From Verrucomicrobiaceae bacterium (lineage in GTDB: Bacteria > Verrucomicrobiota > Verrucomicrobiia > Verrucomicrobiales > Verrucomicrobiaceae), in NCBI GenBank assembly GCA_019694165.1, contig JAIBCL010000001.1, forward strand, positions 62,001 through 126,000: a DNA stretch of 64,000 bases, read 5' to 3'. The position numbers and the translations under genes are program-made. Under the pieces are notes generated by a model that did no database searches, was not told where the DNA came from, and saw only the letters and a list, made by a program, of their open reading frames with translations. Below, one piece after another: positions 29,553-33,146 of this stretch (position 1 is the first letter of the stretch; each line of letters opens with the position of its first letter).

Positions 29553-32500
29553 TCACTTCAGCGTCTGCAGCCACGCCACAAGATCGGCCAAACCTTGCGC
29601 GCCGATTGTCGCAGCGAGTCCGGGTGGCATGAGTGAGTCCTTCATCTCCGCCTTCTTGGCGATGCTTGACTTCTTGACCGCAATCGCTGCACCACCCGCG
29701 ACCTTCAGAGTCAACTCGCTGTCCGTCTCGCTCACGATGTAGCCGACGATGGTTTGGCCTTCCTTTGTCATGATCGTCTCACCATGGAAGCTGTGCTCGA
29801 TGGCGGCGCTCGGATACAGCACGGCGGTGAAGAGCCCGTCTTTGCTGAGCTTGTTGCCGATCTGCGAGAGGTCGGGGCCGAAGTCGATGAACTGGCCTTT
29901 CACACGATGGCAGGCCACGCAGCCCGCCTGCATGAACATCTGCTGTCCCTTGCCTGCGTCGCCTTTGAGCTTCATGAGTTCGGGGATGGTGGGGAAGTTC
30001 TGCAAGCCTTGCGCGGCGGGCAAAGGCAGGGCGCTCGCGGCCTCGCTGCGCACTCCGGCATCGGTGCTGCGACTGAGGGCGAGCGCGGCGGTGGTGAGCT
30101 GGGCTTCGGGCAATTTCTTCTCGCTGTGCCAGCGCAGGATGTTGCGCGCGCCTTCGCTGGTGAGAGCGAGGGCTTCGATGGCCGTGTTGCGCACGCCGTT
30201 GTCCTTGAGCTTCCAGAACGCCTGGTTCAAGACGGCGACGCTCGCGCGATCACCTACGCGGCCCAGCACGTTCACCAGCGCGGTGGCGCTCTTCGGATCA
30301 GACTTCTCTAGCAAGGCCGTCGTGCCATCGCGATTCGCCGCCAGCATCTTCGCGGCGGTGATCGACTCCGGCGCGTTCGGGTTCGCGAGGATGTAATCGA
30401 GCAGTTCCTTCTCGAAGCCCGTGAGGTTCAGTCGCTCGACGAGTGAGACAAACTCCGGCTTGCCGATCACCGGTTTCAACAGCGAGTCGAGCCGTGCTTG
30501 AGCCGCCGGGTCCTTCGAGAGTTGATCCCGCGAGAGCAAGGCGACGGACGCAAGTGCGGTTTCGCTGTCGGCTTTGAGGAAGATTTCGAGCGCGGCTTTG
30601 GCAACTTCGGCGGGGTGGTTGTATTGAAGGAGTTGGAGGGAGCGGAGGAGGCGAAGAGAATTCGCTTTGATCCATGCTTGGACATCTCCGGTGAGATTTG
30701 CTGTCAGGCCAGTGGCGAGGGACTGAGTCACAGAACTGCTGCGGACTCGAAGTGAGATCTCCAACTGACCCAACTGACCAGATTGGTTCGACGCTTGCCC
30801 GGACTTCTTTAGCGAATTGGCAAATAAAGTGTCGGCTCGCGATTGCCACGCCAAATCTCCAGCAATGCCAAGGGCTTCGACCGTCCACCGATCCGAGCTT
30901 CCAATTTGGTCTGCGATGTCTGCCCAGAGTTCACTGGCAGCGGACGATGGATCGAACCGCAGCGCAATCGCCGCCTCGCGGCGCACGGCGGCGGACGAGT
31001 CCTTCACGACCTTCGCCACGACCTCGCGCAGCTTCTCTGGCTGCTCGCGATACAACTGCCGCGCCGCACGGATCGCGGTGATGCGGATGTTTTCGTCGCT
31101 GTCGCTGAGCGCGGTGGCGAGTGTATTCCCGGGCTTTAGCCCGTCTGGCTTGGTTTGCAGAGCTGGCTTCGCATTCGATGGCGCTCCAGCCTGCTGCGGT
31201 TGGGCGGCCTGAAGGCCGGGAATACTTCTCTCCAGCGATGCCAGCAGCCACAACGCCCGCGCTCGGTGCTGCGGCTCGGCTTTCTTGTCTTCGAACAATG
31301 CACGGATGCGCTCGACCGGTGCGTCCGGTTTGCTGAGGGCATGCCAGCCTCCATAGCGCGCCGATTCATTGGGAGATTTCAAATCTAAAAACGCTGGCGT
31401 CCACTGGTCTCCGCGAGTGATTCTTTGCACAGGGTCATACCTTTCCGCCGCCTTCGTCGTCACGCGGAACAACCGTCCACGCGTCACATCCCCCATGCCG
31501 TGGCCGCCGACGCCCGGATCATACCAGTCGGCGACGATGAGCGAACCATCCGGTGCCACCGCCACATCGCTCGGCCTGAACCAGCGATCACGCGCAGCAC
31601 CATCGAGGATGTTCACGATCTCTGCCTTGTAGCCTGCGCCTTCGGGCTGGGTGACATAGGCACGCACGACGTTGGGACCAGCATCGCAGTGAATCGGCAT
31701 CCCCTTGAAAATCGATGGCAGCAGATCGCCTTCATAGACTTGCATGCCGGTGGGTGAGCCTGCGCCGGTTTGAAGGAGGTTCGGAATCACGCCGGGATCG
31801 TTTTGATGCCAGTGGCGTTTCGGGATCTCGTCCTCCCAACCGATGCGCGGTGTCTGCCAGCCGGCGCCGGTCATCTCGTCGGAGTAGCCGTAGTTGCCGA
31901 ACTCCATGACGTAGTTGATGCGCACGCCTTTGTTGCCGTCGTCGTCGTTGTCGGACTGCCACATCGTGCCGAACGAATCCACGGCGACCTCCCAGTTGTT
32001 GCGGAAGTTCCAGGCGAGCACCTCGACGTTGCTGCCGTCGAGTTCGCAGCGGAAGACCATGCCCTGCTGATAGGGGCGGTTGTTTTGATTGGTGCACTTC
32101 ACGCCGTGGATGTCGGTGATGAGGTTGCCGTCCTTGTCGCAGAGCTGCTTGCCGGCGTTGCCAAAGTTGAAGTAAAGGCGGCCATCGGGGCCGAAGTGGA
32201 AGGCGTGGATGCCGTGGTCGTGCTGTGCGCCGCCGATCTTGGTAAACATCAATTCTTTGCGGTCGGCCTTGTCGTCGTTGTTGTCGTCGATGAGCCAGAA
32301 CACGTCATCGCCGCAGGAGATGAGCGCCTTGTTGCCGAGCACGCAGATGCCGTGCGCGCTGTCCACATCGTGGCCCTGGTAGAAGACGGTGGACTTGTCG
32401 GCTTTGCCGTCGTGGTCGGTGTCTTCGAGGATGAGGATGCGGTCGCCCTCCTTGCGCTCGCCGAGGTGCTTGCGGTAGTTCACGACCTCGCACACCCACA

Positions 32501-33146
32501 CGCGACCGCGTGCGTCGATGTCGATGCTGCTCGGGCTGGCCATCATCGGCTCGCTGGCAAAGAGCTGCACGACGCACTCGGGATGCACGTCCAGGCTCGC
32601 GATGGCATCGGCGGGGTCGTGCGTGGCTTCGTCACTGGACTTGATCTCACCAGGGTTCTCCGTGTAAACCGCGAACACGACGCTGTCGCTGCCTTGCTTG
32701 CTGCCACCTTCATCGAGCGCGCCGCGTGCTTTGAATCGTTGCGCACCATCTGGCAGGTTGAAGGCGATCACGCTGTTGGCATGCGTGCCGATGCCATACT
32801 CGATGGCCTTGCCTGCGCTGCGCAGCTCACCGCCGCTCGCATTCGCGTTCACACGCACTTTGCCCCAGCCGGACTTCGCAGACTTCCACTCGACGTCCGT
32901 GAGCTTCTTTTCGGACGAGTCGGACATGATCAGACGCGGCTCGGCCCAGTCTGCCCAGTCAGCGGTGAAGCCATTGCCGCCATCAGTGACGACGAGGAAC
33001 AGCTCCTTCGCGCCCTTCAACTCGACGTCGATGTCCACCGAGTGGCCCGGCGTCTGGGTATTGAGGAGCTTGCTTTGAAACAACGGCTTCGGCGCGGCAA
33101 ACGCGGCGGTCGATGCGAGGGCGAGGACAAGAATGCGGTCGAGCAT
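29553..33146 (-). CDS. PVC-type dehydrogenase-like protein with NPCBM domain, HEAT repeats and C-terminal cytochrome c
   Basis: 1197 residues; ATG 33146 opens a signal peptide (DRILVLALASTAAFAAP). An NPCBM-like domain (VDIDVELKGAKELFLVVTDG ... YGIGTHANSVIAFNLP, about 35-150) precedes the propeller domain (SSIDIDARGRVWVCEVVNYR). A long HEAT-repeat region (about 590-1050) follows. A cytochrome c domain with CVACHRVKG closes the protein. It probably anchors on glycans and moves electrons from sugar oxidation, by analogy with related PVC proteins. The HEAT region contains an in-frame insert encoded by a REPIN-like element at 31123-31225, which adds about 34 residues (roughly IPGLQAAQ to LKPGNT). 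The gene is just upstream of its paralogue on the same strand. Confidence 0.87.
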   Translation of the reverse strand: MLDRILVLALASTAAFAAPKPLFQSKLLNTQTPGHSVDIDVELKGAKELFLVVTDGGNGFTADWADWAEPRLIMSDSSEKKLTDVEWKSAKSGWGKVRVNANASGGELRSAGKAIEYGIGTHANSVIAFNLPDGAQRFKARGALDEGGSKQGSDSVVFAVYTENPGEIKSSDEATHDPADAIASLDVHPECVVQLFASEPMMASPSSIDIDARGRVWVCEVVNYRKHLGERKEGDRILILEDTDHDGKADKSTVFYQGHDVDSAHGICVLGNKALISCGDDVFWLIDDNNDDKADRKELMFTKIGGAQHDHGIHAFHFGPDGRLYFNFGNAGKQLCDKDGNLITDIHGVKCTNQNNRPYQQGMVFRCELDGSNVEVLAWNFRNNWEVAVDSFGTMWQSDNDDDGNKGVRINYVMEFGNYGYSDEMTGAGWQTPRIGWEDEIPKRHWHQNDPGVIPNLLQTGAGSPTGMQVYEGDLLPSIFKGMPIHCDAGPNVVRAYVTQPEGAGYKAEIVNILDGAARDRWFRPSDVAVAPDGSLIVADWYDPGVGGHGMGDVTRGRLFRVTTKAAERYDPVQRITRGDQWTPAFLDLKSPNESARYGGWHALSKPDAPVERIRALFEDKKAEPQHRARALWLLASLERSIPGLQAAQPQQAGAPSNAKPALQTKPDGLKPGNTLATALSDSDENIRITAIRAARQLYREQPEKLREVVAKVVKDSSAAVRREAAIALRFDPSSAASELWADIADQIGSSDRWTVEALGIAGDLAWQSRADTLFANSLKKSGQASNQSGQLGQLEISLRVRSSSVTQSLATGLTANLTGDVQAWIKANSLRLLRSLQLLQYNHPAEVAKAALEIFLKADSETALASVALLSRDQLSKDPAAQARLDSLLKPVIGKPEFVSLVERLNLTGFEKELLDYILANPNAPESITAAKMLAANRDGTTALLEKSDPKSATALVNVLGRVGDRASVAVLNQAFWKLKDNGVRNTAIEALALTSEGARNILRWHSEKKLPEAQLTTAALALSRSTDAGVRSEAASALPLPAAQGLQNFPTIPELMKLKGDAGKGQQMFMQAGCVACHRVKGQFIDFGPDLSQIGNKLSKDGLFTAVLYPSAAIEHSFHGETIMTKEGQTIVGYIVSETDSELTLKVAGGAAIAVKKSSIAKKAEMKDSLMPPGLAATIGAQGLADLVAWLQTLK
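31123..31225. repeat. REPIN-like palindromic repeat element inside a coding sequence
   Basis: The left arm is GTATTCCCGGGCTTTAGCCC (31123-31142). The reverse complement of the right arm (31206-31225) is GTATTCCCGGCCTTCAGGCC. Each arm contains its own hairpin core (GGGCT/AGCCC and GGCCT/AGGCC). The differences between arms are compensatory, so both hairpins and the long-range inverted pairing are kept. This is the layout of REP doublets (REPINs) moved by RAYT transposases. It lies within the HEAT region of the 29553-33146 gene without breaking the frame. Confidence 0.7.

Follow-up and report, generated by a model that had tools for sequence, protein, structure and literature searches.

The cytochrome gene and its palindromic insert

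The window, that is, the whole stretch of 64,000 nucleotides that was analysed, comes from a Verrucomicrobiaceae genome of 7.8 Mb in 66 contigs, labelled G000 here, with relatives labelled G005, G006, G010, G024 and so on. On its minus strand, an open reading frame at 29553-33146 codes for a protein of 1197 residues, which profile matches identify as a PVC-type heme-binding CxxCH protein of DUF7133-HEAT-cytochrome c architecture: the NCBIfam profiles TIGR02604 and TIGR02603 match it at 307.6 and 124.1 bits, and a domain search recovers PF23500, HEAT_2 and Cytochrom_C, and likewise an NPCBM domain. The DUF7133 domain (residues 178-543; 31518-32615, minus strand) lies upstream of a 103-bp insert at 31123-31225, delineated by its arm pair, its repeat family and a comparison of linkers, which is read in frame as residues 641-675 (SIPGLQAAQPQQAGAPSNAKPALQTKPDGLKPGNT). 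The HEAT_2 match (residues 676-731; 30954-31121, minus strand) begins directly after the insert, the cytochrome c domain occupies residues 1066-1113 (29808-29951, minus strand), and the list of open reading frames shows the host frame free of stops across the entire insert.

The insert comprises two inverted 21-nt hairpin arms (GTATTCCCGGGCTTTAGCCCG and CGGCCTGAAGGCCGGGAATAC) within about 100 bp, complementary at 18 of 21 positions (86%) and separated by a spacer of 61 nt (31144-31204), which agrees with the roughly 60 bases estimated in an earlier, sequence-only reading of this DNA. The left arm (31123-31143, plus strand), the 3' arm in the sense of the gene, combines a GGGC-TTTA-GCCC hairpin with the tag GTAT, where the consensus of its family has GTAG, and is read as DGLKPGNT. 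The right arm (31205-31225, minus strand), the 5' arm in gene sense, carries GTATTCCC followed by a GGCC-TTCA-GGCC hairpin, which on the forward strand is GGCC-TGAA-GGCC, and is read as SIPGLQA. Between the two arms one stem pair is exchanged from G-C to C-G, the compensatory base change that had been noticed from the letters, and the loop also differs. The region of the insert folds more strongly as single-stranded DNA than do shuffled versions (z of -3.9). The complementarity of the arms, by itself, is not extraordinary for a gene of 3.6 kb, as one of 25 Markov shuffles equals it; being weak as a sole statistic, it was dropped in that role.

In the AlphaFold model, computed with 26 sequences, residues 643-672 (31131-31220, minus strand) form a predicted coil between the HEAT helices 625-641 and 672-680, with a pLDDT below 50, a value likewise expected where few aligned homologues cover a stretch, as against near 90 for the solenoid and a mean of 76.6 for the protein. 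The insert is thus predicted to be an unstructured loop between two HEAT helices, and the model is consistent, as regards structure, with the earlier suggestion that the element adds a linker.

A dispersed repeat family and its candidate transposases

The sequence-only reading had proposed a REPIN-like element within a cytochrome gene and, as checks, a search of the genome for the arms and for a RAYT transposase gene, together with an alignment of orthologues lacking the insert. The arms indeed recur across both the genome and the bacterial family. At three mismatches alone the arm search returned few copies; with the motif then generalised, the consensus GTAGTNNNGNGCTTNAGCNC has 44 exact matches in the whole genome, 22 per strand, as against none for a reversed-pattern control, and elsewhere in the repeat family the arm takes the form GTAGT..GCTTNAGC. 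A census drawn from pattern searches together with 31 retrieved regions yields about 25 inverted pairs (dimers), four of them within one tandem array, so that the repeat is dispersed, multi-copy and mostly arranged as inverted doublets. The commonest dimer measures 93 bp, counted from GTAG to CTAC, and AAA and TTT frequently flank it. Spacers vary in both sequence and length and are unconserved between copies; homology of the insert to other members therefore rests on the terminal ~25 nt, with the exception of one intergenic dimer, also of 103 bp (G000:C38:186535), which is 71% identical to it. The repeat is present in most of the Verrucomicrobiaceae genomes examined and all but missing in the order's other families. 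In a separate locus (G000:C30:131044-131668) four tandem dimers with a period of 169 bp adjoin the end of an ORF of 1011 codons.

It is on the genome-wide arm family and the intergenic sibling, rather than on complementarity, that we take the insert as real. A chance quasi-palindrome within a low-complexity linker, with no mobile element involved, might be entertained, given that the linker is hypervariable and rich in Ala, Pro and Gln and that a shuffled gene can attain equal complementarity; yet chance would have to account for arms matching both the dispersed family and the sibling, as well as for the same peptide signature in unrelated genes (see below), and we regard it as extremely improbable.

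The outer hairpin ends, which read GTAG in the genomic family, both read GTAT in the insert. One TnpAREP no longer cleaved when GTAG was altered at its third and fourth positions (PMC8266576), and in light of this the substitution in both arms implies that this copy is probably immobile. The insert is thus probably a decayed, REPIN-derived copy rather than an intact REPIN. The copy in the G017 orthologue has GTAA in both arms; such matching departures from GTAG within a copy suggest, from sequence comparison, that the two arms may be corrected against each other.

As for the transposase, the genome codes for five RAYT-like proteins at 34-39% identity to a RAYT of G024, and no copy of this repeat occurs within about 1.5 kb of any of these five genes; none being flanked by the repeat, they were rejected as cognate RAYTs, and the proposed search was borne out with respect to the presence of such genes alone. 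In contrast, relatives do carry RAYT genes associated with the repeat: that of G024 (contig C36; ~220 aa; 79.3 bits to NF047646, for which the cut-off is 80) has arrays of it on both sides, and two RAYT genes of G005 (contigs C26 and C88) are likewise flanked on both sides. We infer that the repeat was mobilised by a RAYT of the G024 type.

A RAYT-like gene was also noticed in passing inside the leucyl-tRNA synthetase gene. The only leuS found in G000 (C22:231900-235900) codes for 1135 residues, as against ~875 in relatives, and between positions 362 and 366 of TIGR00396 its frame runs through an entire RAYT-like transposase. An exact 24-nt inverted repeat (GGGGAACAGGCGTCTCGCCTGTTC) brackets this transposase, such that a whole REP-RAYT-REP unit is read through. 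In G006, which belongs to another genus, leuS (C121:85500-89100) is built alike at this position, with another REP and a RAYT that has diverged.

Filled and empty sites in orthologues

Orthologues of the host gene across Verrucomicrobiaceae, at 69-82% identity, include both filled and empty versions of the site. The linker spans 57 residues here versus 24-26 in distant orthologues, which lack the insert; this accords with the earlier estimate of about 34 added residues. The closest orthologue, that of G010, has a linker of 43 residues without the repeat, and that of G011, also among the closest, has no repeat either. Divergent dimers of the same type occupy the same linker in G017, G034, G024 and Prosthecobacter VE4. 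In eight distinct orthologues we instead observed a different element of ~100 bp with hairpin arms at the same linker (peptide SAGGPAHSKTLP...KRPGVLQPSGAFE); several genomes contain multiple copies of its arm. A third candidate palindrome type, GGGACTTGCCAAGTCCC / GCGGGAGTTGGCAACTCCCGC, occurs at the linker in G032 and was seen only among orthologues of the host gene.

The repeat-bearing orthologues are scattered over the gene tree, and their distribution might in principle reflect a single entry of a REPIN in the common ancestor of the Verrucomicrobiaceae followed by many losses or replacements, with no recurrent targeting. Such a history would explain why the 3' junction (TTLA-AL-D) is equally placed in G000, G017, G034, G024 and Prosthecobacter VE4, and, with spacers decaying fast, an old homology would be difficult to recognise. 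However, the repeat label requires five changes on the tree, at least four of them forced by strongly supported branches; the closest orthologues are without the repeat; the 5' junction shifts by several residues between orthologues; and other species have a different palindromic element at the site. We accordingly consider a single ancestral entry unlikely. The comparison instead suggests that the same linker took up palindromic elements several times in these relatives and may be an insertion hotspot. More broadly, though at somewhat less than even odds, the linker between the first HEAT repeats in DUF7133-type heme proteins might be where mobile palindromes of unrelated families land again and again, with RAYT-type elements repeatedly supplying this one large protein family with new loop sequence and thereby driving its linker diversity.

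In-frame copies in other genes and the origin of the loop

REPs are usually treated as intergenic elements, and the sequence-only reading had likewise taken doublets to be normally intergenic. In this genome a coding insertion is not exceptional: eight of the ~25 dimers lie in frame inside long open genes, and the remainder are intergenic or close to the ends of genes, in some cases directly abutting an ORF end (distance 0). Their hosts are an Rhs-type protein, a Ser/Thr kinase, a TPR protein and four DUF7133-type genes with five dimers among them. All eight translate the 3' arm in a single frame, as GLKPxTT or a close variant, and the 5' arm has two solutions, SSxGLQP and VVxxFSP; in the former the TTT loop is altered, so that CTT TAG gives no stop. 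Dimer length modulo 3 leaves a remainder of 1 in the SSxGLQP set and 2 in the VVxxFSP set, as against 0 in the common intergenic form of 93 bp, and only 18 of 102 frames are open in the non-genic dimers. The in-frame state of eight out of eight is in part a matter of ascertainment, since in-frame copies are the survivors. The genes of all eight run on the minus strand of the respective contig, which is probably due to chance, contig orientation being arbitrary.

Domain borders are where most of the remaining intragenic dimers are found. That of the kinase follows a membrane helix, which was read by eye from the sequence, and a gene on G000 contig C18 has two dimers, the first between DUF7133 (50-464) and HEAT_2 (491-573) and the second immediately preceding cytochrome c (952 on). 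Nine out of ten homologues of this gene have neither dimer; G024 has both, with the open frame retained at 73% protein identity. This gene and the host-gene linker, with their filled and empty orthologous sites, provide indirect evidence for mobility. In the orthologue on G024 contig C59, the insert after RLAPK has its 5' arm tandemly doubled (GTCATTCCGAGCGCTAGCTCGGAC AAAGTAGTTCCGAGCTTTAGCTCG) and is still in frame. Elsewhere, a DUF7133 gene of 1870 codons (G000:C23) and one of 1871 in G024 (G024:C2:17057-19185) both have repeat arms ~2.1 kb apart, perhaps representing old insertions common to both genera. Three Rhs-type paralogues (G000:C22:277142, 280301 and 283025) contain one arm-like GTAGTCAAGAGCTTCAGCTC each, read as VVKSFSS; having a single arm only, these (C22:277142-283044) were left out of the count of REPIN insertions.

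These in-gene copies also bear on whether the loop has been co-opted, for instance to tune the spacing of the HEAT solenoid or the binding of a partner, and is kept by selection. The persistence of both C18 dimers in G024 would fit such a role, as would the presence of five of the eight in-frame dimers in DUF7133-type heme proteins, this being a raw count on few events (four of seven genes), unscaled for gene-family size. Against it, loop sequence and length vary freely among orthologues of the host gene, many of which have no such loop, and the loop is predicted to be disordered; co-option is, in our view, quite improbable.

Based on these observations we propose, with a probability of about 0.9, that this segment of 103 bp represents a decayed REPIN in a DUF7133-HEAT-cytochrome c gene, free of stop codons and kept as a tolerated disordered loop. 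It would derive from a family of paired, inverted GTAG-type REP hairpins with a spacer which spread through the Verrucomicrobiaceae and which a RAYT (HUH) transposase presumably used to mobilise in single-stranded form. A copy would have entered between two HEAT helices of the host gene, or arrived there via gene transfer, in a frame without a stop codon; the loop, presumably translated in vivo and neutral, could then have been retained because an alpha-solenoid tolerates a disordered segment on its surface.

In-frame REP dimers are already known from Opitutus and Rickettsia. GTAG REP dimers within ORFs have been reported, most of them in Opitutus terrae, and were suggested to occupy flexible linkers or loops; different REPs were also noted at about the same recB site in two Xanthomonas species (Di Nocera et al. 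2013, PMC3733652). Like the insert, the dimers of O. terrae, also a member of Verrucomicrobiota, are inverted GTAG hairpins 20-100 bp apart that are intragenic and add 20-30 residues. Those cases involve DNA repair genes, whereas the hosts here are mainly DUF7133-HEAT-cytochrome proteins, with at least two palindrome types in one linker in different species. The inverted doublet, the variable spacer and the RAYT adjoining the repeat in relatives recall the REPINs and RAYTs of Pseudomonas (Bertels and Rainey 2011, PMC3116915), which were analysed in extragenic space; unlike these, the present repeat has a low copy number (~25 dimers) and no cognate RAYT found in G000. The Rickettsia palindromic elements, in frame in many unrelated genes (PMC10969869, PMC3733652), are the classic analogue by description, although according to these papers RPE-4 and RPE-6 belong to the CGTC type and the elements reach about 150 bp. 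In layout only, the short palindrome, whose TTTA loop follows GTAG at a distance of a few bases, resembles REPtron Mb of Marinomonas, a different host, from group 3 TnpAREP (PMC8266576). What this locus adds is the DUF7133-type host family, the evidence from empty sites, and the finding that different palindromes have used one and the same linker.

The locus thus offers an orthologue-controlled case of a REP-type element turned protein-coding, documented by empty sites, by the reading frames that are used, by a predicted structure and by candidate RAYTs from related genomes. Should the linker truly be a hotspot, its orthologues would form a natural series for asking how often the mobile DNA of bacteria feeds into protein loops and if any of these come to have a function.
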